Shown piece after piece: positions 2,853 to 30,989 of a stretch of DNA of 35,608 nucleotides; within the stretch, counting starts at the first letter, position 1, and each line of letters begins with the position of its first letter. Below the pieces are notes generated by a model. The model worked only from the letters and a program-made list of their open reading frames with translations, had not been told where the DNA came from and made no database searches. The stretch comes from an uncultured Oscillospiraceae bacterium (GTDB lineage Bacteria; Bacillota; Clostridia; Oscillospirales; Oscillospiraceae). Where the stretch lies: assembly GCA_947631865.1 (NCBI GenBank), contig CANRNF010000026.1, positions 1-35,608 on the forward strand, given 5' to 3'. A program made the position numbers and the translations under genes.

Positions 2853-4478
2853 TTACTCAGCCTGGGCCGCGGCGTAGCGGTCATAAGCGTCCTGGTAGAC
2901 CTGCAGCAGTTCGTTCATGCCGCAGGAGTCGCTGAGCATCTCCTTGTAGGACTCCCAGCTATCGTCGGTGATGCCGCCGTCGCGGAGCCACAGGCCCTCC
3001 TGCTCGGCCACCATGGACTCAAAATCAGCCTTGTAAAGGTCGATGGTCTCCAGCTCCTTCGGCGTGAATACGCAGTCAACGGGGTACACGCTGGTGTCGT
3101 CCACAAAGGGCATCCAGTAATCATACAGGTCGGTCAGCCGCTCAATGGCCCGGTCCTCCATGGCGAAGGTGTCGCTGTAATACTCAGAGAGGATCAGCTT
3201 GGGACCGGCCACCTCGTTGGCCATCTTCAGCTCGCCGGCGCCCTTGCCGAACATCTCCTGAGACTGCTCCTCGGTGATGGACTGCCAGATGCCGTTTTCG
3301 TCCTGCTCCAGGAAGTAGGTGCCGATGGGGCCGTACTGCAGCTGCATGACGATCTCGCCGTCGTACCACTGGTCAAAGAACTTCAGCAGGGTGGCGGGGT
3401 CCTCGCAGGCGGAGGTGATGGAAAGCTGGCCGGCGTTGGTGGCGCCGCCGGTGCGGACGGTCACGTTATGGGTGCCGTCGGGGCCGTCCAGAACGGGCAG
3501 GAACACATAGTCGTCGGCGTAGTCGCCCATCAGCTCCTCGATGTACCACCAGGTGGACACGCCCACATAGCCCTGCTGGCACTTGGCCATCAGCTGGGTG
3601 TCGGACTGGGAGAACATCTCCACGTCCATCAGGCCCTCGGCGTACCAGTCGTGGAAATAGGTCAGCGCCTCGCGGTAGCGGTCGTCCACGCACACGAAGC
3701 TGACCTTGCCGTCCTTATCCAGCACCAGGTCGTTGCACACGTCGTTGATCCAGTTGGTGAAGCCGAAGCCGGCGTAAAAGATGTTCTGGCCCCAGCACCA
3801 CTGGTCGAAGCCAGTGGACATGGGCAGGGTGCTGCCGGGAGCGGCGCCGTACATCTTGGCGGCCATGTCGTTCTCCTTGAAGGCCACCAGCACGTCGTGC
3901 AGCTCATCCAGGGTGGTGGGCACCTCCAGGCCCAGATCGTCCAGCCACGCCTTGTTGATCATGGAGAATTGAGGAATGGTATAGATGGAGTAATCCTCCG
4001 GTTTGCCGATGCCGGCGGTGCCCATCTGCTCGGCGGCGGGCAGGCCGTAGATCTTGCCGTCGGACATGGTGATGGCGGAGCGGATACCGGGATGCTCTTC
4101 CAGAATGGCGGAGAGGTTGGGCATGATCTCCGGGGTGATATAGGGGGTCAGGTCGATGAAGGTCTCGTCCTCGCCGTACCGCATCAGGTCGTAGTTGGAG
4201 AAGCCCACGCCCATGAAAGCGTCAGGGTAGTCGCCGCCGGCGATACGGATATTCACCTGTTCGGCCAGGGAGTCGCTCATGGTATCCCAGGTGATGTGGA
4301 TGCCCAGGTTGTCCTGGAGCTGGTTGAGCACTACATTGTCGTCATAGCCGGGACTCAGGGCGGACATGCCGCCCATGATCTCGAACTCGGTCTGGGTCGC
4401 GTCTTCGGCGGCAAAGGCGGTCGCGCTCATGGTGAACGCCAGGCACAGGGCCAACACAACAGCGATGATCCTTTTCAT
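2853..4478 (-). CDS. Extracellular solute-binding protein of a carbohydrate ABC importer (LplA-like)
   Basis: Secreted sugar-binding component of 541 residues. The N-terminus is a signal peptide: a KR-containing start, a hydrophobic core to about residue 19, then an AFA cleavage motif near 23-24. No canonical lipobox is seen (LALC has Leu at -1), which is unusual for a Gram-positive binding protein; anchoring may rely on another partner. The body has the large family-1 binding-protein look, rich in Trp, Tyr and Asp (QWCWGQNIFYAGFGF, STWWYIEELMGDY). The SD AAAGGAG is well spaced. It lies between two permease genes and GH32, so sucrose or fructo-oligosaccharide is the inferred ligand. No ATPase gene is present, as is typical of CUT1 systems that share an MsmK-type ATPase. 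Confidence 0.88.
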   Translation of the reverse strand: MKRIIAVVLALCLAFTMSATAFAAEDATQTEFEIMGGMSALSPGYDDNVVLNQLQDNLGIHITWDTMSDSLAEQVNIRIAGGDYPDAFMGVGFSNYDLMRYGEDETFIDLTPYITPEIMPNLSAILEEHPGIRSAITMSDGKIYGLPAAEQMGTAGIGKPEDYSIYTIPQFSMINKAWLDDLGLEVPTTLDELHDVLVAFKENDMAAKMYGAAPGSTLPMSTGFDQWCWGQNIFYAGFGFTNWINDVCNDLVLDKDGKVSFVCVDDRYREALTYFHDWYAEGLMDVEMFSQSDTQLMAKCQQGYVGVSTWWYIEELMGDYADDYVFLPVLDGPDGTHNVTVRTGGATNAGQLSITSACEDPATLLKFFDQWYDGEIVMQLQYGPIGTYFLEQDENGIWQSITEEQSQEMFGKGAGELKMANEVAGPKLILSEYYSDTFAMEDRAIERLTDLYDYWMPFVDDTSVYPVDCVFTPKELETIDLYKADFESMVAEQEGLWLRDGGITDDSWESYKEMLSDSCGMNELLQVYQDAYDRYAAAQAE

Positions 4479-4520
4479 GTTTTACTCTCCTTTTTAAAAA
4501 TTTTCAAGTTCGGTCCGTGA

Positions 4521-5408
4521 TCAGCCTTTCACGGCACCGGCCATAAAGCCTTTTTCAAAGTATTTCTGCACGAAGGGGTAGATGATGAGCATGGGAGCGG
4601 CCGCCACGATCATGGAGGAGAATTTCAGCATCTCGGTCAGCTTGTTCAGCTCGGCGTAGCCGCCGGAGATGGTGCTGGCCTGGCTGGCGCTGGCGGAGCT
4701 CTTGATGAGGATGTTGCGGATGACCAGAGGCATGGGCGCCTGATTGGCCTTCAGATAGATCAGGGCGGTGAACCAGTCGTTCCAGTAGGCCACCATGGAG
4801 AACACCACCATGACCGCCAGAATGGGCTTGGACAGGGGGATGACGATGCGCAGGAAGGTGCGCATCTTGGAGCAGCCGTCTATTTCCGCCGCCTCGATCA
4901 GATCGTGGGGTATGTTGTTCTGGAAATAGTTGCGGACGATGATCATGTTGCCCACGGCCACGCCGCCGGGCAGAAACAGCGCCCACATGTTGTACAAAAG
5001 GCCCGTCTGCTTCACCACCAGGTAGGTGGGGACCAGACCGCCGCCGAAGTACATGGTGATGAGGAAGAACACGCTGAAGAATTTGCGGCCGGGCAGATCC
5101 TTCTGGGCCAGGGGATAGGCAGTGACGTACAGCATCACCACGGAGAAGATGGTGCCGATGACGGTGTATTTGACGGAGTTGATGAAGCCCCGCAGCAGGC
5201 TGTCGTCCGCAAACACCGCCGTATAGCCCTTGAGGGTGAACTCGCTGGGGAACAGGAAGGTCTTGCCGGCATACACGTCGTAGGGGTTGGACACGGAGGC
5301 CACCAATACATAGTACAGCGGATAAGCCACCAGCAGCATGATGATGGTGCAGAACACGACCAGGATAACGTCGCTGGTCTTATCGGAAAGTCCGCGCGTC
5401 TTTTTCAC
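4521..5408 (-). CDS. Carbohydrate ABC transporter permease (LplC/MalG type)
   Basis: Second inner-membrane permease of the importer, 295 residues with about six transmembrane segments. The EAA loop that docks the ATPase is visible as EAAEIDGCSKMRTFLRIVIPL, followed by SKPILAVM. The C-terminus FVQKYFEKGFMAGAVKG is the standard ending of LplC-type permeases. The start is a GTG at 5408 with TAAGGAGG about 8 nt upstream. It follows the first permease by 13 nt. Confidence 0.92.
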   Translation of the reverse strand: MKKTRGLSDKTSDVILVVFCTIIMLLVAYPLYYVLVASVSNPYDVYAGKTFLFPSEFTLKGYTAVFADDSLLRGFINSVKYTVIGTIFSVVMLYVTAYPLAQKDLPGRKFFSVFFLITMYFGGGLVPTYLVVKQTGLLYNMWALFLPGGVAVGNMIIVRNYFQNNIPHDLIEAAEIDGCSKMRTFLRIVIPLSKPILAVMVVFSMVAYWNDWFTALIYLKANQAPMPLVIRNILIKSSASASQASTISGGYAELNKLTEMLKFSSMIVAAAPMLIIYPFVQKYFEKGFMAGAVKG

Positions 5409-5421
5409 AGCGTCCGCCTCC

Positions 5422-6351
5422 TTACACGATGCCCACGTCCGAGGTCTTGGACGCGATCTTGTTGACGATGATCAGCAGCACCAGGTTGATGACCGTGTTG
5501 AACAGGCCCACGGCGGTGGAATAGCTGTACTTGGCGTTCTCGATGCCCTGCTGGTACACATACACCGCGATGACGTCGCTGGTGGCCTTGTTCAGATCGG
5601 TCTGCAGCAGCCATACCTTCTCAAAGCCCACGTTCATCAGCGAGCCCGCGCTCATGATGAGGTTCAGGATGGCCATGGGCAGCAGCGCCGGCACGTCCAC
5701 GTTCATGATCCGCTGGAACACGCTGGCCCCGTCCACCTTGGCCGCCTCGTACAGGCTGGTGTCCACGTTGGACAGCGTTGCCAGATAAATGATGCAGCCC
5801 CAGCCCGCGTCCTGCCAGATGCCGGAGGCTATGTAGATGGTCCGGAACGCGGAGGATTGTGTAAGGAAATCCACCTGGGTGCCCAGAAGCAGGTTGATGA
5901 GGCCGCCGGAGGGGCTCAGGAAGATGCGCAGCATACCGCAGATGACCATGGTGGAAATAAAGTGCGGCGCGTACAGCACGGTCTGCACGATCCGCTGGTA
6001 GCGCTTGAACCGCAGCTGGTTGATGCACAGGGACAGGATGATGGGCACCGGGAAACTCCACAGCAGACTGTAAAAGCTGAGCAGGATGGTGTTTTTGATC
6101 ATCCGCCCAAAGGTGGGCGCGTTAAAGAAGCGCCGGAACCAGTCCAGGCCCACCCATGTGCTGCCAAGATACCCCCGATTGGCTTTGTAATCCCGGAAGG
6201 CGATCTGGATGCCGTACATGGGGATGTACTTATAAATAAACGTGATGACCACCGGGATCAGCAGCAGAAGATAAAGCTGCCAGTTGTTCAGCAAGCGCGT
6301 TTTCAGCGGCTTGCCCACGCGAACAGGTTTTTTGCTGATCGCTTCGTCCAT
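5422..6351 (-). CDS. Carbohydrate ABC transporter permease (LplB/MalF type)
   Basis: First permease of the importer and first gene of the operon. It has about six membrane spans, beginning with NWQLYLLLLIPVVITFIYKY. The EAA motif is YEAAKVDGASVFQRIMNVDVPAL, and the C-terminal block resembles LplB proteins (DVIAVYVYQQGIENAKYSYSTA). A longer frame opens at 6384, but that ATG sits in operator O2. AAAGGAG lies about 11 nt before the ATG at 6351, so I use 6351 (309 residues). Repression by the divergent LacI protein is inferred from operators at 6372-6383 and 6429-6440. Confidence 0.92.
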   Translation of the reverse strand: MDEAISKKPVRVGKPLKTRLLNNWQLYLLLLIPVVITFIYKYIPMYGIQIAFRDYKANRGYLGSTWVGLDWFRRFFNAPTFGRMIKNTILLSFYSLLWSFPVPIILSLCINQLRFKRYQRIVQTVLYAPHFISTMVICGMLRIFLSPSGGLINLLLGTQVDFLTQSSAFRTIYIASGIWQDAGWGCIIYLATLSNVDTSLYEAAKVDGASVFQRIMNVDVPALLPMAILNLIMSAGSLMNVGFEKVWLLQTDLNKATSDVIAVYVYQQGIENAKYSYSTAVGLFNTVINLVLLIIVNKIASKTSDVGIV

Positions 6352-6371
6352 TGTCTGCTCCACTCCTTTTG

Positions 6372-6383
6372 TGTAACGTTTCA
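6372..6383 (-). promoter_or_regulatory. LacI-family operator O2
   Basis: TGTAACGTTTCA, the exact reverse complement of O1. It lies in the untranslated leader just ahead of the permease SD, with its centre 57 bp from O1. Confidence 0.75.
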
Positions 6384-6428
6384 TGCCGCGGTACGAAAAA
6401 ATCCGCCGAAGTGCGGGCTTTATCGTCG

Positions 6429-6440
6429 TGAAACGTTACA
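6429..6440 (-). promoter_or_regulatory. LacI-family operator O1
   Basis: TGAAACGTTACA with the central CG typical of LacI-family sites. It sits about 10-20 bases downstream of the inferred start of the sugar-operon transcript, where a bound repressor would block elongation or initiation. Confidence 0.78.
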
Positions 6441-6456
6441 TCATTAAGATAAACCT

Positions 6457-6486
6457 ATAATATGCCCACATCTGGCGCGCTGTCAA
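6457..6486 (-). promoter_or_regulatory. Promoter of the sugar operon
   Basis: On the minus strand: a perfect -35 TTGACA (6481-6486), an 18-nt spacer and a -10 TATTAT (6457-6462). Transcription would start near 6450 and read into the permease genes through O1 and O2. Confidence 0.75.
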
Positions 6487-6596
6487 GATAATATTTTGTG
6501 CGGTTTTACTGTTTTCCCTATTCACCAAAAACTGCTTTTTCTTTTTGTGCAACCCGCCGTATCGTGGCGGAATTCCTGCTATTTTGCGTTTTCTGC

Positions 6597-6625
6597 TTGC
6601 AAAATAACGTTTCATAAGTTATTCT
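6597..6625 (+). promoter_or_regulatory. Promoter of the LacI-type regulator gene
   Basis: TTGCAA at 6597-6602, a 17-nt spacer and TATTCT at 6620-6625. Operator O3 lies entirely inside the spacer, implying autorepression. Confidence 0.65.
6603..6614 (+). promoter_or_regulatory. LacI-family operator O3
   Basis: AATAACGTTTCA; the ten bases TAACGTTTCA are identical to O2. It lies between -35 and -10 of the regulator's own promoter. Confidence 0.65.
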
Positions 6626-6649
6626 GTGAACAAGAGACGCAAAATTCCA

Positions 6650-6661
6650 TGAAACATTTCA
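6650..6661 (+). promoter_or_regulatory. LacI-family operator O4
   Basis: TGAAACATTTCA has perfect TGAAA/TTTCA half-sites and differs by one centre base from the idealised TGAAACGTTTCA. It lies just before the regulator's SD. Confidence 0.5.
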
Positions 6662-6680
6662 CACAACAAGGAGCGGCTGT

Positions 6681-7670
6681 ATGAAGCGTGGAACGATGCC
6701 TACCATGAAAGATGTGGCCAAAGAGGCGGGCGTGGCCCTGGGGACGGTGTCCAAGGTGTTCAACGACATCCCCGTGGGCGAGGACTATCGCCGGCGGGTG
6801 CTGGACGCGGCCCAAAAGCTGGGCTACCAGGTCAACAGCTATGCCCGGGGCCTCAAGGCCGGCAAGACCGGAACCGTGGCCCTGATCCTGCCCAACGCCT
6901 ATGACCCCTATTTCGCCGCTCTGGCGGACAGTGTCTGCCAGACCCTCGCCCGGCGTGGCTGCCGTATGCTGATGGCGGTCACCGGTTCGGACCCGGACGC
7001 GGAGCAGCAGTGCATCCGCATGGTGGAACAGAATAAGGTGGACGGCATCATCGGTCTGACCTATAACCCGGCGCTGGAGATCCCCGCCTCCATCCCCTTC
7101 GTCAGCATCGACCGGTATTTCAACCCGGCGGTGCCCTGCGTGGCGTCGGACAACTTCGGCGGCGGGCAGCTCGCGGTGGAGAAGCTGGCGGAGCGGGGCT
7201 GCCGGCGGCTGCTGTTTCTGCGCATCGGCGCGGATGTGCCCGGCGAACCGGACAAGCGCATGGGCGGCTTTCAGGCCGCCTGTCAGGCCCGGGGACTTGA
7301 GCATGAGGCCCTGGCCCTGAACGACAGGGACGGCTATGAGCCCTTCCGCGTCTTTCTCCGGTCCCATGTGGAGGGCGGCAGGCTTTCCTACGACGGCATC
7401 TTCTGCAACACGGACCGGCTGGCCTTCTATGTACAGAACATGCTGGCCGAACTGGGTCTGCGGGTGCCGGAGGATGTGCAGCTGGTGGGCTTCGACGGCG
7501 TGCGCCGGTTCGGGAACGACGGCTACTACTGCTCCACCATCGTCCAGCCTGTGGGGCAGCTGGCGGAGACCAGCGTGAACATCCTGCTGGAGGAGGACCG
7601 CTCCGCCCTGCCCAGCCTCATCTGCCTGCCGGTGAGCTATGCTCCGGGGGGCACGACTCTGGACGGCTGA
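6681..7670 (+). CDS. LacI family transcriptional repressor of the fructan operon
   Basis: DNA-binding repressor of 329 residues. The LacI headpiece is at the N-terminus (TMKDVAKEAGVALGTVSKVFND, with VALGTVSKV as recognition helix), followed by the hinge helix SYARGLKAGKTGTVALI and a periplasmic-binding-protein-like effector domain (PNAYDPYFAALADSV, VDGIIGLTYNP, SIDRYF, VQLVGFDG). The start has AAGGAG 7 nt upstream. It is divergent from the ABC importer operon and flanked by four matching operators, so it most likely represses both that operon and itself until a sugar binds. The effector is not deducible; sucrose, fructose or a phosphate of either are candidates. Confidence 0.93.
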   Translation: MKRGTMPTMKDVAKEAGVALGTVSKVFNDIPVGEDYRRRVLDAAQKLGYQVNSYARGLKAGKTGTVALILPNAYDPYFAALADSVCQTLARRGCRMLMAVTGSDPDAEQQCIRMVEQNKVDGIIGLTYNPALEIPASIPFVSIDRYFNPAVPCVASDNFGGGQLAVEKLAERGCRRLLFLRIGADVPGEPDKRMGGFQAACQARGLEHEALALNDRDGYEPFRVFLRSHVEGGRLSYDGIFCNTDRLAFYVQNMLAELGLRVPEDVQLVGFDGVRRFGNDGYYCSTIVQPVGQLAETSVNILLEEDRSALPSLICLPVSYAPGGTTLDG

Positions 7671-10509: not shown

Positions 10510-11532
10510 ATGCAGACCGTGACACTGGGAAAGACCGGGCTAGTGGTCACAAAGCCCGCCTTCGGCGCCCTGCCCATCCAGCGGCGGGACAAGGATGAGG
10601 CCGTGCGCATCCTGCGCCGGGCCTATGAGGGCGGCATCCGCTACTTCGACACCGCCAACGCCTACACCGACTCCGAGGAGAAGATCGGCCTGGCCCTGGC
10701 CGATGTGCGGGGGGACATCGTGATCTCCACCAAGAGCATGGGCCGGGACCACGATACCGTGGCCAAGCATATCCAAATGAGCCTGGAGCGGATGAAGACC
10801 GACTACATAGACCTGTTCCAGTTCCACATGGTGTCCAATTGGGATGAGATCGACGGCGGTGCCTGGGTGGCGGCTCAGGAGGCAAAGGCCAAGGGCTGGG
10901 TGCGCCACATCGGCGTCACCAGCCACTCCATCCGCTTCGCGGAGGAGGCGGTGGCCTCGGGCCGGTTCGAGACGCTGCAGTATCCCTTCAGCTACCTGTC
11001 CAGCCCCGAGGAGATGGATCTGGTCCGGGCCTGCCGGGACGCGGACATGGGCTTCATCGCCATGAAGGCCCTGGCCGGCGGCATGCTGGCCAACGCCCGG
11101 GCGGTGCATGCCTTCATGCGGGAGCAGGAGGGCGTAGTCCCCATCTACGGCGTGCAGACAATGGAGGAACTGGAGCAGTGGCTGGCCCTGGCGGACGAGG
11201 ACCCGGCCCTGGACGGGGAGCTGCAGGCGGTCATCGACGCGGACAAGGAGCAGCTGGGCGGACAGTTCTGCCGCAGCTGCGGCTACTGCATGCCCTGCCC
11301 CCAGGGCATCGAGATCCGCAACTGCGCCCGGATGGACATGCTCATCCGCCGCAGCCCCTGGCGGCCCTACTTCACGCCGGAGTGGCAGGAGAAGATGAAC
11401 AAGATCAAGACGTGCCTGAACTGCGGCAAGTGCAAGTCCAAGTGCCCCTACCACCTGGACACCCCCGCGGTGCTCAAGTACATGCTGAAGGATTACCGGG
11501 AGTTCTATGAGGCCCACAAGGCGGAGCTGTAA
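10510..11532 (+). CDS. Aldo/keto reductase with C-terminal [4Fe-4S] ferredoxin domain
   Basis: A 340-residue oxidoreductase. The N-terminal two thirds form an AKR barrel with all four catalytic positions visible: D47, Y52 (FDTANAY), K75 (STK) and H106 (FQFHM). The C-terminal domain carries two Cys clusters, C254-x2-C257-x2-C260-x2-C263-P and C302-x2-C305-x2-C308-x3-C312-P, which should hold [4Fe-4S] centres. This architecture is common in anaerobes, but its substrate is generally unknown; electron transfer between ferredoxin-type centres and a carbonyl substrate is inferred. It overlaps apbE by 26 nt. Confidence 0.92.
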   Translation: MQTVTLGKTGLVVTKPAFGALPIQRRDKDEAVRILRRAYEGGIRYFDTANAYTDSEEKIGLALADVRGDIVISTKSMGRDHDTVAKHIQMSLERMKTDYIDLFQFHMVSNWDEIDGGAWVAAQEAKAKGWVRHIGVTSHSIRFAEEAVASGRFETLQYPFSYLSSPEEMDLVRACRDADMGFIAMKALAGGMLANARAVHAFMREQEGVVPIYGVQTMEELEQWLALADEDPALDGELQAVIDADKEQLGGQFCRSCGYCMPCPQGIEIRNCARMDMLIRRSPWRPYFTPEWQEKMNKIKTCLNCGKCKSKCPYHLDTPAVLKYMLKDYREFYEAHKAEL

Positions 11533-12538
11533 GGCCCTGTGCGCCCTGGCTCTGGCTCTGGGGCTGCTGGCCGGCTGCGGGAAAGACCCAGCCATGGAAA
11601 AGCATGAAAAGCAGCTTTTCGCCATGGACACGGTCATGCTCCTCACGGCTTACGGGGACAGATACGAGGCGGCGCTGGACGCCGCCGTGGATACCATCAA
11701 CGGCCTGGCGGCGGACCTGGACCCGGAGAAGGAGGGCGGCTCTCTCTATGCCCTGAACGCCGAGGCGGGCGGCCCTGTGATCGTGTCGGCGGACTGCGCC
11801 GCCGTGCTGGACACGGCCATGGACGTGTGGAGCGAGACAGGCGGGGCTCTGGACCCGGCCCTCTACCCGGTCATCAAGGCCTGGGGCTTCACCACGGGCG
11901 AGTACCGGGTGCCGGATCAGGGGTCGCTGGACGCCCTGCTGGCGGGAAAGGACACGGGCGCCATCGCCATTTCCGGTGACACGGTGACTATGCCGGCGGG
12001 GATGGAGCTGTCTCTCGGCGCGGTGGCCAAGGGCTATGCCGCCCAGAAAGCCGCGGAGGCCATGGCGGCGGCCGGGGCGGAGCACGCCATATTGTCCCTG
12101 GGCGGGAACGTGCAGACCCTGGGCGAGACCCGGCCGGACGGGAAGAGCTGGCAGGTGGCCGTGACGGACCCCAGCGACACGGGGGCCTATGTGGGCACCC
12201 TGTCCGTGGGCCAGACGGCGGTGGTCACCTCCGGGGGCTACCAGCGGTATTTTGACGAGGATGGCGTCCGGTATATCCACATCCTGGACCCGGCCACGGG
12301 CCGCCCGGCGGACAACGACCTGCTGTCCGTCACGGTGGTGACGGCGGACGGGGCAAGGGCGGACGCCCTGAGCACGGCCCTGTTCGTGCTGGGGTCGGAA
12401 GGGGCCCTGGATTATGCCGCGGCTCACGGGGACGTGGAGGCCGTGCTCATCACCAAAGACGGCCGGGTGATCGTGACCGGAGGCCTCCGGGACGGTTTCA
12501 CCGAGGCAGGTAAGGGATATACCTATGAATATGAATGA
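11507..12538 (+). CDS. apbE: FAD:protein FMN transferase, ApbE lipoprotein
   Basis: Transfers FMN from FAD to Ser/Thr of extracytoplasmic flavoproteins. The 343-residue product has a lipoprotein signal (MRPTRRSCK basic start, hydrophobic core, LLAGC lipobox with C24). The ApbE core is visible: FAMDTVMLLTAYG, SLGAVAKGYAAQKA (FAD binding), LSLGGNVQTLG and the HILDPATGRPADNDLLSVTV block with metal-binding residues. The start overlaps the reductase by 26 nt; GGGAG lies 5 nt upstream and no other start preserves the signal peptide. No flavinylated target (FMN-bind domain) is seen in this window, so its client is encoded elsewhere. Confidence 0.93.
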   Translation: MRPTRRSCKALCALALALGLLAGCGKDPAMEKHEKQLFAMDTVMLLTAYGDRYEAALDAAVDTINGLAADLDPEKEGGSLYALNAEAGGPVIVSADCAAVLDTAMDVWSETGGALDPALYPVIKAWGFTTGEYRVPDQGSLDALLAGKDTGAIAISGDTVTMPAGMELSLGAVAKGYAAQKAAEAMAAAGAEHAILSLGGNVQTLGETRPDGKSWQVAVTDPSDTGAYVGTLSVGQTAVVTSGGYQRYFDEDGVRYIHILDPATGRPADNDLLSVTVVTADGARADALSTALFVLGSEGALDYAAAHGDVEAVLITKDGRVIVTGGLRDGFTEAGKGYTYEYE

Positions 12539-27177: not shown

Positions 27178-27591
27178 ATGTTTGATATGATCCCTTTTTC
27201 CAGCCGCTCCTATAAGCCCAGCACCATCTGGGACCCGTTCCAGGAGTTCTTCGGCGCCGTGACCCACGCGGCCGCCACCGATATCCGGGAGTCCGACAAA
27301 GACTTCACCATCGAAACGGAGCTGCCCGGCTTCGACAAGAGCGAGATCGCCGTCAGTGTCAAAGAGGGCGTTCTCACCGTGAAGGCCGAGCACCAGGCGA
27401 AGGACGACGAGACCGACGACAACGGCTATATCCGCCGGGAGCGGTCCAACGCCACTGTGGAGCGCAGCTTCGAGGTCTCCGGCGTGGACGCCGGCGCCAT
27501 CAGCGCCCAGTTCACCAACGGCGTGCTGAAGCTGACCCTGCCCAAGCTGCCGGAGATCGTGCCCCAGCAGCACCAAATTGAGATCCAGTAA
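27178..27591 (+). CDS. Small heat-shock protein (Hsp20/alpha-crystallin)
   Basis: ATP-independent holdase chaperone of 137 residues. The alpha-crystallin domain is complete: ATDIRESDKDFTIETELPGFDKSEIAVSVKEGVLTVKAE, then ERSFEVSGVDAGAISAQFTNGVLKLTLPK, and the C-terminal EIVPQQHQIEIQ segment. The N-terminal leader MFDMIPFSS is typical. The SD CAGGAGGT is strong. CIRCE upstream indicates HrcA control, which in most Bacillota governs groE and dnaK rather than hsp20. Confidence 0.96.
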   Translation: MFDMIPFSSRSYKPSTIWDPFQEFFGAVTHAAATDIRESDKDFTIETELPGFDKSEIAVSVKEGVLTVKAEHQAKDDETDDNGYIRRERSNATVERSFEVSGVDAGAISAQFTNGVLKLTLPKLPEIVPQQHQIEIQ

Positions 27592-27616: not shown

Positions 27617-27649
27617 GCCGCCGGAGGTCAACGCCTCCGGCGGCTTTTT
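27617..27649 (+). terminator. Terminator of hsp20
   Basis: An 11-bp stem GCCGCCGGAGG (27617-27627) with CCTCCGGCGGC (27634-27644), then TTTTT. Confidence 0.9.
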
Positions 27650-27690
27650 GTATATTTTGTCACACACAGCAAAAATGCCTCCGTTTGATA

Positions 27691-27720
27691 TTGACAAAAA
27701 TGCCCAAAGGGCGCTAAAAT
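27691..27720 (+). promoter_or_regulatory. Promoter of the ACAD-Etf-rubredoxin gene
   Basis: TTGACA (27691-27696), 18-nt spacer, TAAAAT (27715-27720). The spacer contains the small palindrome GCCC-aaa-GGGC, a possible operator. Confidence 0.7.
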
Positions 27721-27782
27721 ATCTTCACCTATGCAAAGCGCAGACCGCATGGAGCAACACCAACGCAAAAGGAGGAGCATCT

Positions 27783-29696
27783 ATGTTATATCAGACGACC
27801 CCGGAGCACGAGGCCCTGCGTGCGAAAATACGCCAGTTCGCGGAGGAGGAGATCAAGCCCATCGCCTTCGCCCTGGATCAGGCCAACGAGTTCCCCGACG
27901 AGGCCGTGAAAAAGCTGGGCCAGATGGGGCTCATGGGCATCCCCTACCCGAAGGAATACGGCGGCGCGGGCCTGGACGTACAGAGCTATGCCATCGCCGT
28001 GGAGGAGCTGGCCCGTGTGGACGGCGGCGCGGGCGTCATCCTGTCCGCCCATGTGTCCCTGGGCAGCTACCCCATCTTCGCCTTCGGCACCGAGGAGCAG
28101 AAGAAAAAGTACCTGGTGCCCCTGGCCAAGGGCGAGAAGATCGGCGCCTTCGGCCTGACCGAGCCCAACGCGGGCTCCGACGCCGGCGGCACGGAGACCA
28201 CCGCCGTGGACAAGGGGGACTATTACCTCCTGAACGGCGGCAAGATATTCATCACCAACGCCCCCAAGGCGGACACCTACGTGGTCTTCGCCGTCACCAC
28301 CCCGGACATCGGCACCCGGGGCATCAGCGCCTTCATCGTGGAGAAGGGCTGGAAGGGCTTCGATTTCGGCGACCACTACGACAAGATGGGCATCCGCTCC
28401 TCCACCACGGCGGAGCTCATCTTCAACGACGTGAAGGTGCCCAAGGAGAACCTGCTGGGCAAGGAGGGCCAGGGCTTCAAGATCGCCATGGCCACCCTGG
28501 ACGGCGGCCGCATCGGCATCGCGGCCCAGGCCCTGGGCATCGCCCAGGGGGCCTATGAGAACGCCGTGGCCTACGCCAAGGAGCGCATCCAGTTCGGAAA
28601 GCCCATCGCCTTCCAGCAGGCTTTGTCCTTCAAGATCGCGGATATGGCCACCAAGCTGCGCTGCGCGCGGTTTCTGGTCTACTCCGCGGCGGAGCTGAAG
28701 GAGCACCACGAGCCCTACGCCATGGAGGCGGCCATGGCCAAGATGTACGCCTCCGACATCGCCCTGGAGGTCACCAACGACGCCCTTCAGATCCACGGCG
28801 GCGCCGGCTTCATGAAGGGCATGGAGGTGGAGCGGGCCTATCGCGACGCCAAGATCACCACCATTTACGAGGGCACCAACGAGATCCAGCGGGTGGTCAT
28901 CTCCTCGGCCATCCTGGGCAAGGCGCCCAAGTCCGCCGGCGGCGGCGGAGGCTCCGCCCCCAAGAAGCCCGCCCCCATCACCGGCGTGCGGAAAAAGACC
29001 ATCTTCCGGGAGGGCGACGCCAAGGAGAAGGTGGAGGCCCTGGTGGCGGCCCTTAAAAAGGACGGCTACGACTTCACCGTGGGCATCCCCGCCGACACGC
29101 CTATCGCCCAGGCCGAGCGGGTGGTATCCGCCGGCAAGGGCATCGGCCCCAAGGAGAACATGAAGCTCATCGAGGACCTGGCCCAGGCCGCCGGCGCGGC
29201 CATCGGCTCCAGCCGGCCCGTGGCGGAGACATTGAAATATGTGCCCCTGAACCGGTACGTGGGCATGTCCGGCCAGAAGTTCACCGGCAACCTCTACATC
29301 GCCTGCGGCATCTCCGGCGCCATCCAGCACCTGAAGGGCATCAAGGACGCATCCACCATCGTGGCCATCAACACCAACGCCGGCGCGCCCATCTTCAAAA
29401 ACTGCGACTACGGCATCGTGGGCGACGTGAACGAGATACTGCCCCTGCTCACCGAGGCCCTGGGCACCGGCAAGAAGAAGCCCGCCCCGCCCATGGTGAA
29501 GATCAAGCGGCCCGCGCCCCCCAAGCCGGAACCCATCGGCCCCCGGTATGTGTGCGGCGGCTGCGGCTACGAGTATATCCCCGAGCGGGGCGACGCCAAC
29601 GCGGAGATCCCCGCCGGCACCACCTTCGACAAGCTGCCCGAGGATTGGGTGTGCCCGGAGTGCGGCGAGGGTAAGGACCAGTTCATCCAGGCGTAA
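27783..29696 (+). CDS. Acyl-CoA dehydrogenase / EtfA FAD domain / rubredoxin fusion
   Basis: A 637-residue three-part flavoprotein. Residues about 1-380 are a full acyl-CoA dehydrogenase with [14 protein letters not shown] at the FAD site and the catalytic base E363 in [10 protein letters not shown] Gly/Ala/Pro-rich linker (about 380-400) leads to an EtfA C-terminal FAD domain, about 405-565 ([61 protein letters not shown]). A second Pro/Lys linker leads to rubredoxin with iron ligands C591, C594, C624 and C627. EtfA domain I and EtfB are missing. Electrons should run from acyl-CoA to FAD, Etf FAD, then rubredoxin iron. ATG 27783 has AAAGGAGG upstream. The flavodiiron gene follows 21 nt later. 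Confidence 0.95.
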
Positions 29697-29717
29697 GACG
29701 GAAAGGAGATATGATAT

Positions 29718-30932
29718 ATGCATTGCGTAAGAGAAGTTACCGATAAGCTCTACTGGGTGGGCGCCAACGACCACCGCCTGACCCTTTTCGAGAACATCCA
29801 CCCCATCCCCAAGGGCGTGAGCTACAACTCCTATCTGCTGCTGGACAAGAAGACGGTCCTGTTCGACACTGTGGACTGGTCCGCCTGCCGGCAGCTCATT
29901 GAGAACATGGAGTACCTGCTGGGGGATAAGCCCCTGGACTATCTGCTCATCAACCACATGGAGCCCGACCACGGCGCCTCCATCGAGGAGATATTGCTGC
30001 GCTGGCCCAAGGTGAAGATCATCTCCAACGACAAGGCCTTCCTCCTCATGCGCCAGTTCGGTTTCCACGTGGACGGCCACGAGCTCATATCCGTGAAGGA
30101 GGGGGACACCTTCTCCTTCGGCGACCACACCGTCACCTTCGTGGCGGCCCCCATGGTCCACTGGCCCGAGGCCATGGTGACCTTCGACACCACCAACGGG
30201 GTGCTGTTCTCCGCCGACGCCTTCGGCTCCTTCATCGCCCTGGACGGCAAGCTGTTCGCCGACGAGGTCGACTTCGACCGGGACTGGCTGGACGAGGCCC
30301 GCCGGTATCTCACCAACATCGTGGGCAAGTACGGCCCCCATATCCAGCTGCTGCTGAAAAAGGCGGCCGGCATCCTGGACCAGATCAAGTTCGTCTGCCC
30401 CCTCCACGGGCCGGTGTGGCGCAAGGACCTGGGGTACTTCATCGACAAGTACGACAAGTGGAGCCGCTATGAGCCCGAGGAGAAGGGCGTGCTCATCGTG
30501 TACGCCTCCATGTACGGCAACACCGAGGCCGCGGCCCAGTGCCTGGCCAGCAAGCTGTGCGAAAAGGGCGTGACCAACGTGGCGGTGTACGACGTGTCCA
30601 ACACCCACGTGAGCTACCTCATCTCCGAGGCCTTCAAGTACAGCCACATCGTCCTGGCCAGCGTCACCTACAACCTGGGCATCTACCCGGTGATGCACAA
30701 CTTCCTCATGGACATGAAGGCCCTGAACCTGCAGAACCGGACCTTCGCCGTCATCGAGAACGGCTCCTGGGCCGTGAAGTCCGGCGACCTGATGAGCGCG
30801 TTCATCACCGACCAGCTGAAGAACATGACGCTCCTCAATGAGCGTTTGTCCCTGGCCTCCTCCCTCAAGGAGGATAAGGCCACGGAGCTGGAGAACCTGG
30901 CTAACGCCCTGGTGGAATCCGTCAACGCATAA
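29718..30932 (+). CDS. Flavodiiron protein (rubredoxin:O2/NO oxidoreductase)
   Basis: A 404-residue class A flavodiiron protein reducing O2 to water (or NO to N2O). The metallo-beta-lactamase half has all seven di-iron ligands: H80, E82, D84, H85 (NHMEPDHG), H148, D167 and H230. The flavodoxin half starts near 255 (GVLIVYASMYGNTE) with FMN-binding loops including SVTYNLGIYP and ENGSWAVKSG. It has no fused rubredoxin or NADH reductase domain, so it needs an external electron donor. The rubredoxin domain of the preceding gene is an obvious candidate. AAAGGAG lies about 9 nt upstream. Confidence 0.96.
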   Translation: MHCVREVTDKLYWVGANDHRLTLFENIHPIPKGVSYNSYLLLDKKTVLFDTVDWSACRQLIENMEYLLGDKPLDYLLINHMEPDHGASIEEILLRWPKVKIISNDKAFLLMRQFGFHVDGHELISVKEGDTFSFGDHTVTFVAAPMVHWPEAMVTFDTTNGVLFSADAFGSFIALDGKLFADEVDFDRDWLDEARRYLTNIVGKYGPHIQLLLKKAAGILDQIKFVCPLHGPVWRKDLGYFIDKYDKWSRYEPEEKGVLIVYASMYGNTEAAAQCLASKLCEKGVTNVAVYDVSNTHVSYLISEAFKYSHIVLASVTYNLGIYPVMHNFLMDMKALNLQNRTFAVIENGSWAVKSGDLMSAFITDQLKNMTLLNERLSLASSLKEDKATELENLANALVESVNA

Positions 30933-30957
30933 AAATTTCACCCAACGGCAAAATATC

Positions 30958-30989
30958 ATGTCCCGGCTCCGCGGAGCCGGGACATTTTT
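30958..30989 (+). terminator. Terminator of the flavodiiron unit
   Basis: Perfect 13-bp arms ATGTCCCGGCTCC (30958-30970) and GGAGCCGGGACAT (30973-30985), followed by a T-run. It closes the two-gene unit. Confidence 0.92.

Follow-up and report, generated by a model that had tools for sequence, protein, structure and literature searches.

The window analysed here is the whole of a 35,608-nucleotide stretch of DNA from an uncultured Oscillospiraceae bacterium (CANRNF010000026.1), and constitutes contig C26 of a draft genome that totals 3.0 Mb in 150 contigs and is 87% complete. At positions 27783 to 30932 of its plus strand lie two adjacent genes. The first encodes a 637-residue fusion (27783..29696) of an acyl-CoA dehydrogenase, the flavin adenine dinucleotide (FAD) domain of the electron transfer flavoprotein (Etf) alpha subunit, EtfA, and a rubredoxin; it is called BCR here, after a homologue named butyryl-CoA reductase. 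The second encodes a 404-residue flavodiiron protein (FDP; 29718..30932). Judged from its genes, the pair is very probably a new member of the butyryl-CoA oxygen oxidoreductases (BOOR), with the activity that this membership predicts.

The fusion protein and its flavodiiron partner

BCR starts at an ATG (27783) located inside a longer open reading frame (ORF; 27648-29696) and preceded by a AAAGGAGGAG ribosome-binding site. Its acyl-CoA dehydrogenase part (residues 6-377; 27798..28913) matches the Pfam families Acyl-CoA_dh_N, Acyl-CoA_dh_M and Acyl-CoA_dh_1 with E-values down to 1.6e-50, and its nearest solved chain is 5ol2_C (E-value 3.9e-144). Residue E363 (28869-28871), which we take to be the catalytic glutamate, is present. 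The EtfA C-terminal FAD domain encompasses residues 441-560 (29103..29462), as delimited by Pfam, by matches to EtfAs in the PDB and by conservation: the Pfam ETF_alpha FAD domain covers residues 441-521 (9.5e-27), and the similarity to EtfA reaches residue ~560. This match covers just the C-terminal third of the solved EtfAs, and no ETF N-terminal/EtfB domain is detected by Pfam in the BCR chain or in the scanned flanking genes. The chain is terminated by a rubredoxin domain (residues 588-634; 29544..29684; Pfam, 4.9e-19) harboring cysteines 591, 594, 624 and 627. The domain order agrees with an alignment of 16 relatives. In the AlphaFold prediction the modules are ordered and are connected by low-confidence linkers around residues 380-400 and 570-590; these linkers would fit mobile carriers, and the predicted model displays no contact. 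Residues R478, S496 and H516 of the EtfA domain are retained and, based on motif spacing and on the Arg/Ser/His of Etf named in the available part of PMC12630350, would in our own reading belong to the Etf flavin site.

The FDP possesses a di-iron beta-lactamase domain followed by a flavodoxin (ODP and flavodoxin profiles). It belongs to the class-A type, having these two domains only, and Pfam finds no rubredoxin domain in it. The seven residues His80, Glu82, Asp84, His85, His148, Asp167 and His230 (HEDHHDH), presumably the iron-ligand set of FDPs, are complete. In two members of the window genus, a longer second FDP is encoded in convergent orientation just downstream of the pair (L073, 2977-4839; L075, 9071-10951). 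By Pfam, that of L075 is composed of ODP, a flavin reductase and a rubredoxin-like C-terminus, and a 617 amino-acid frame of this longer kind occurs on contig C10 of the window's own genome (C10:21204-21788).

A mere 21 nt separate the BCR stop codon from the FDP start. The two genes form a unit bounded by two terminator-like hairpins, each with a 12-pair stem and a T run: the first (27617..27644, plus strand) ends the upstream unit after an HSP20 gene, and the second (30958..30985, plus strand) ends the BCR-FDP unit. In between lies a promoter-like site, TTGACA-18-TAAAAT (27691..27720, plus strand), agreeing with 11 of 12 consensus positions. To put these elements in proportion, three promoter-like sites were found vs 1.1 expected, and seven terminator-like sites vs 3.2 expected. 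TTGACA also stands upstream of the pair in five of the six other genus members compared, the exception being L009, and is not present upstream of the pair in L012, a member of the order. The original prediction, drawn from the letters of the sequence, had described a single chain holding the dehydrogenase, the FAD domain of EtfA alone and a rubredoxin, followed 21 nt later in the same unit by an FDP, with the catalytic glutamate, the four cysteines and the seven di-iron ligands intact. The Pfam domains in that order, the match restricted to the C-terminal third of the solved EtfAs, the presence of these residues and the hairpin-bounded layout bear it out on each of these points.

Relationship to BOOR, conservation and host setting

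The BCR-FDP pair itself is already known. In Fusobacterium nucleatum, FN1423 assembles a dehydrogenase, an EtfA C-terminus and a rubredoxin, was named butyryl-CoA reductase (BCR) and has a bicistronic partner; the complex, of a4b4 composition, and its butyryl-CoA:O2 activity were demonstrated by others, and the BOOR work cited is that of Bystrom & Wolthers 2024 (Biochemistry 63:2352), according to the part of PMC12288474 that is accessible, in which many Firmicutes are also said to encode the system. The available part of PMC12630350 gives the BOOR locus tags as FN1423-FN1424. The accessible text of a preprint (PMC13404960) describes the pair beside an Rrf2 regulator in Roseburia, Faecalibacterium, Eisenbergiella and other gut Clostridia. 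The electron route that the original prediction had believed to be uncharacterised was thus already in print in 2024, and two of these sources place it in Firmicutes (PMC12288474, PMC13404960, as accessible).

The window pair resembles F. nucleatum BOOR in its three-domain fusion, its FDP type and its two-gene unit. It differs in belonging to another organism and in being known from its genes, and the likeness to FN1423-FN1424 is one of architecture. Over 637 amino acids, the window BCR shares 77.6% identity with that of a record titled Fusobacterium sp.; its identity to 22 loci of the family of that Fusobacterium-labelled genome is 74-79%. Because the GC content of these loci is 52-54% in two and 30-35% in the other 20, this family may not be Fusobacterium throughout. 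The gut-Clostridia loci of PMC13404960 (accessible part) harbor the same BCR and FDP pair with Rrf2 beside it, whereas an HSP20 chaperone gene lies upstream of the window pair and no Rrf2 gene adjoins it among its neighbours in the window. An Rrf2-type regulator cluster occurs near BCR in 29 of 108 BCR loci, the window pair not being among those loci; 25 of its members lie at most 1 kb upstream of BCR in the same orientation, and one representative was confirmed by Pfam.

Two other known systems are readily distinguishable. In the bifurcating Bcd-EtfAB complex (5ol2), the dehydrogenase (E-value 3.9e-144) and the EtfA FAD domain (E-value 4.6e-29) are homologous to those of the window BCR. The latter, however, is devoid of EtfB and of the EtfA N-terminal domain, and has a rubredoxin and an FDP instead of NADH and ferredoxin, which we take to be the partners of 5ol2. 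A canonical Etf-dependent dehydrogenase is not indicated either, as Pfam shows no separate EtfAB pair within the unit or among the flanking genes scanned, the PF01012 matches of the genome being on contigs C61 and C128. In NorV-type flavorubredoxins a rubredoxin likewise feeds a flavodiiron core, whereas the window rubredoxin sits on the electron-donor protein and not on the FDP.

For this host we infer the activity, the acyl chain length and each transfer step as follows. In the window BCR, which has all four cysteines, we favour the published route: electrons would run from acyl-CoA to the dehydrogenase FAD, the EtfA FAD, the rubredoxin iron, the FDP flavin mononucleotide (FMN), the di-iron site and O2. 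The EtfA domain, on its flexible linker, would use its own FAD as the carrier; from there the C-terminal rubredoxin would hand electrons singly to the FMN, and the di-iron site would reduce O2 to water. The pair could scavenge O2 for its anaerobic host, spending weak electrons (-10 mV) rather than NADH, and the host Bcd-Etf could re-reduce the crotonyl-CoA formed. Such an acyl-CoA-to-O2 wire bypassing EtfB had been proposed in the original prediction. It agrees with the F. nucleatum reports (PMC12288474, accessible part) in its general course. Some members may be able to do without its iron step. Nitric oxide (NO) had been named there as a second possible acceptor. The best solved match of the FDP, 1ycf, is indeed a chain named nitric oxide reductase, and the FDP matches two anaerobic NO reductase flavorubredoxin models, so that an FDP serving chiefly as an NO reductase fed by acyl-CoA may be envisaged. 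These matches (216 and 194.8 bits) are nevertheless far under the cut-offs (635 and 711), and the F. nucleatum complex is reported in the accessible part of PMC12288474 to be without NO reductase activity. We regard the NO reductase as very unlikely and no longer retain NO as an acceptor.

The pairing of the two genes is strongly conserved. Of 8000 candidates scored with the EtfA-rubredoxin C-terminal part of BCR, 5994 match at E<=1e-10, and PF00766 and PF00301 are both present in all of the 120 matches listed, which argues that the fusion is more than chance. An assembly artefact was rejected, the fusion recurring in database matches, in genomes of the genus and in a sample of the class. In this sample, the EtfA-rubredoxin part is found over nearly its whole length in 31 of 391 genomes (the window's own included), each time with an FDP directly downstream of the fusion (31/31). 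Among the named loci, which are the best 80 of 333, an FDP lies on the same strand at most 400 nt downstream in 78 and after 568 nt in L189; in L203 the contig ends 2 nt after the fusion, leaving 79 of 79 assessable loci with an FDP. The family of the Fusobacterium-labelled genome has the fusion in 22 of 61 genomes searched and an FDP at all 22 loci, one of these FDPs being cut by a contig end. In the window genus, 10 of 24 other genomes possess the pair, which is whole in 7 and broken up by contig ends in 3, with the FDP adjoining in all 10. A conserved separation of the two genes in relatives, which would have spoken against the original prediction, was therefore not seen. The four cysteines and the residues corresponding to E363, R478, S496 and H516 are kept in every one of the 80 named and 22 family sequences. 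In phylogenetic trees, BCR dehydrogenase domains split from stand-alone dehydrogenases with 100/100 support, the host Bcd falling with the latter, and the window BCR stands within a supported (99/94) set of 11 BCRs that retain the four rubredoxin cysteines (Cys4).

The metabolic setting of the host was examined in the remainder of the genome. Contig C61 encodes a crotonase, a 3-hydroxybutyryl-CoA dehydrogenase (Hbd), Bcd, EtfB and the start of EtfA, and RnfC is encoded on contig C82. The host EtfB (C61:472-1272) is closest to caffeyl-CoA reductase CarD and to 5ol2 chains. From their sequences, these genes appear to match the Bcd-Etf/Rnf setting proposed for BOOR (PMC12288474, accessible part).

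Several observations weigh against the assignment of the window pair to BOOR. The pair occurs unevenly in the genus, in 10 of 24 other genomes, and no fused match was found in three genus genomes listed as 97% complete. A single clade of all BCRs is rejected when rubredoxin-less fusions are included in the tree (approximately unbiased test, p-AU 0.027), L064 standing apart, and rubredoxin must therefore have been gained or lost more than once. The host EtfB scores 502.7 with the EtfB model of acryloyl-CoA reductase, above the cut-off of 475. Finally, the dehydrogenase domain of BCR scores best with acryloyl-CoA reductase AcrC, at 495.5 bits and below the cut-off of 640; among the 25 of 31 NCBIfam models listed, it reaches the cut-off of none. 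As a separate matter, the EtfB score leaves a propionyl/acryloyl-CoA role that EtfB may fill beside Bcd.

Because AcrC is the best model and EtfB passes the acryloyl-CoA reductase cut-off, a C3 substrate is conceivable. More generally, the physiological substrate may be another acyl-CoA (propionyl-, branched or longer), in which case the system would be an acyl-CoA oxygen oxidoreductase and not strictly a butyryl-CoA one. Against this stand the crotonase and Hbd genes in the same row as the host EtfB, and the use of butyryl-CoA by the F. nucleatum homologue (PMC12288474, accessible part). A substrate other than butyryl-CoA seems rather unlikely to us on balance.

The acyl-CoA and rubredoxin couples are close in potential, and another part of the own genome has a gene for a free rubredoxin. 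Both would be consistent with a reversed wire, in which rubredoxin receives electrons from a rubredoxin reductase or some other donor and the fusion forms butyryl-CoA by reducing crotonyl-CoA. The close FDP pairing, the direction reported in F. nucleatum (accessible part of PMC12288474) and the presence of host Bcd-EtfAB genes that would already serve crotonyl-CoA reduction make such a reversal highly improbable, and electron flow from butyryl-CoA to O2 is the direction retained below.

The genes surrounding the pair suggest no further partner. Directly upstream, the HSP20 chaperone gene (27178-27591; Pfam) is a stress-type neighbour and is followed by the first of the two hairpins; no sign of its co-transcription with the pair was seen. 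Downstream, family profiles identify an ACT-domain gene, a homoserine dehydrogenase and an aspartate kinase-like gene. A minus-strand ORF of 1057 amino acids spans the pair (27786-30959) and is, by our reading, a mere shadow of GC-rich codons. Elsewhere in the window (10510-12538), a gene for an aldo/keto reductase with a 4Fe-4S dicluster domain is followed by an overlapping ApbE-family gene.

Variants with an altered or missing rubredoxin

In genus g119 of family f50, the matching source sequences are named Anaerococcus (A. octavius, A. hydrogenalis, A. porci and others), and from these names the genus is taken to be Anaerococcus. At all 29 of its loci (28 distinct; L099-L127, L062/L063), D,S,S,S stand in place of the four rubredoxin cysteines. 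The same replacement is present in 9 of 9 proteins named Anaerococcus and in 70 of the 70 closest listed proteins (P0121-P0190). An alignment of 291 distinct sequences, restricted to those above 600 amino acids with shorter and duplicate entries dropped, displays D,S,S,S in 92 and C,C,C,C in the other 199. The Cys-less BCR occurs in 29 of 31 g119 genomes, the other two being without match; an FDP adjoins it at all 29 loci, and HEDHHDH is intact in all 29 of these FDPs.

The Cys-less domain remains under strong purifying selection. At equal divergence of the dehydrogenase part, conservation of the non-ligand rubredoxin positions in Cys-less vs Cys4 sequences is 0.81/0.73, 0.87/0.83 and 0.95/0.88 in the three comparable bins. 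With ligand positions removed, the ratio of nonsynonymous to synonymous substitution rates (dN/dS) of the Cys-less rubredoxin domain is 0.094 (333 pairs), as compared to 0.164 for the Cys4 domain in the window's group (28 pairs, less diverged); that of the EtfA domain is 0.099 in Cys-less and 0.103 in Cys4 sequences. The predicted secondary structure of the Cys-less domain matches that of the window protein. Taken together, the dN/dS values, the conservation bins and the predicted secondary structure indicate that the iron site was lost and the module retained.

A free rubredoxin as a specific stand-in for the lost cysteines of Anaerococcus was considered and is unsupported, as it occurs family-wide. 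A short free rubredoxin ORF is found in 31 of 31 Anaerococcus-type genomes; across the family as a whole, PF00301 matches, including those within fusions, occur in 117 of 130 genomes, with at least two in each BCR-bearing genome listed. As the BCR genomes of the family thus also hold a second PF00301 match, the free rubredoxin does not discriminate; it is a possible carrier in the Cys-less members. A search of the open literature, outside which the 2024 BOOR paper fell, returned nothing on Anaerococcus with rubredoxin and acyl-CoA dehydrogenase, or with flavodiiron.

The Cys-less sequences also differ at residue 452 (29136-29138), where the window BCR reads G-K-G and canonical EtfA reads G-R-G. 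Residue 452 is K in 174 of the 199 Cys4 sequences, L, Q, M, V, I or T in 21 and R in 4; it is R in all 92 Cys-less sequences. No firm link between this residue and the cysteine loss can be drawn because the Cys-less sequences form one clade. The idea that Lys452 replaces a lost Etf arginine tuning the flavin semiquinone was withdrawn, since motif spacing places the Arg/Ser/His of Etf named in PMC12630350 at R478, S496 and H516, which are invariant here.

Other dehydrogenase-EtfA fusions are devoid of rubredoxin altogether. They are 556-591 amino acids long, with one of 535 at a contig end; 28 such places and one EtfA-size frame were listed, and 20 regions were examined, plus L065 and L067. An FDP is paired with the rubredoxin-less fusion in 14 of the 20 regions (L247-L255, L257-L259, L261, L262). 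Its gene is divergent in 13 regions, with a gap of 116-342 nt (1.5 kb in L247), and codirectional, 111 nt downstream of the fusion, in L254. In L256 (G485:C3:1-10000), a rubredoxin-less fusion, a full BCR and an FDP form a row on one strand. No FDP was found in the stretches around the remaining five (L246, L260, L263, L264, whose stretch is incomplete, and L265). L065 exhibits a broken rubredoxin-less fusion beside an FDP of the divergent type, and no FDP was found in the stretch around L067, nor in that of L066, from another family. The rubredoxin-less fusion of L067 (G389:C7:160000-172000, 3660-7656) lies between 3-hydroxyacyl-CoA dehydrogenase-like and CoA-transferase-like genes, these neighbours having been assigned by eye. 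The FDPs beside rubredoxin-less fusions keep HEDHHDH, and the fusions keep the E, R, S and H residues, the exception being D for E in the long-branched L259.

As both Cys-less and rubredoxin-less members adjoin FDPs, the built-in iron may be dispensable. We give an even chance to the view that it is not obligatory in the acyl-CoA-to-O2 wire: the Anaerococcus domain would be an iron-free docking module, and in these members, as in the rubredoxin-less fusions that have FDP partners, the EtfA FAD would give up its electrons to the FDP FMN either directly or via a docked free rubredoxin. Read from the sequences, docking may be the primary task of the rubredoxin module, and some members may manage the flavin-to-flavin step with no iron built in, unless a free rubredoxin serves them as the carrier.

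Significance for anaerobes

The close pairing of BCR and FDP across Clostridia and the family of the Fusobacterium-labelled genome fits a general O2-scavenging role that would spend butyryl-CoA, not NADH. The window adds a well-supported member to BOOR, and the mechanistic variants are the larger gain: the Cys-less and rubredoxin-less forms are a testable addition to the BOOR mechanism, since these natural versions let electron transfer through FeS4 and docking be compared among existing proteins.

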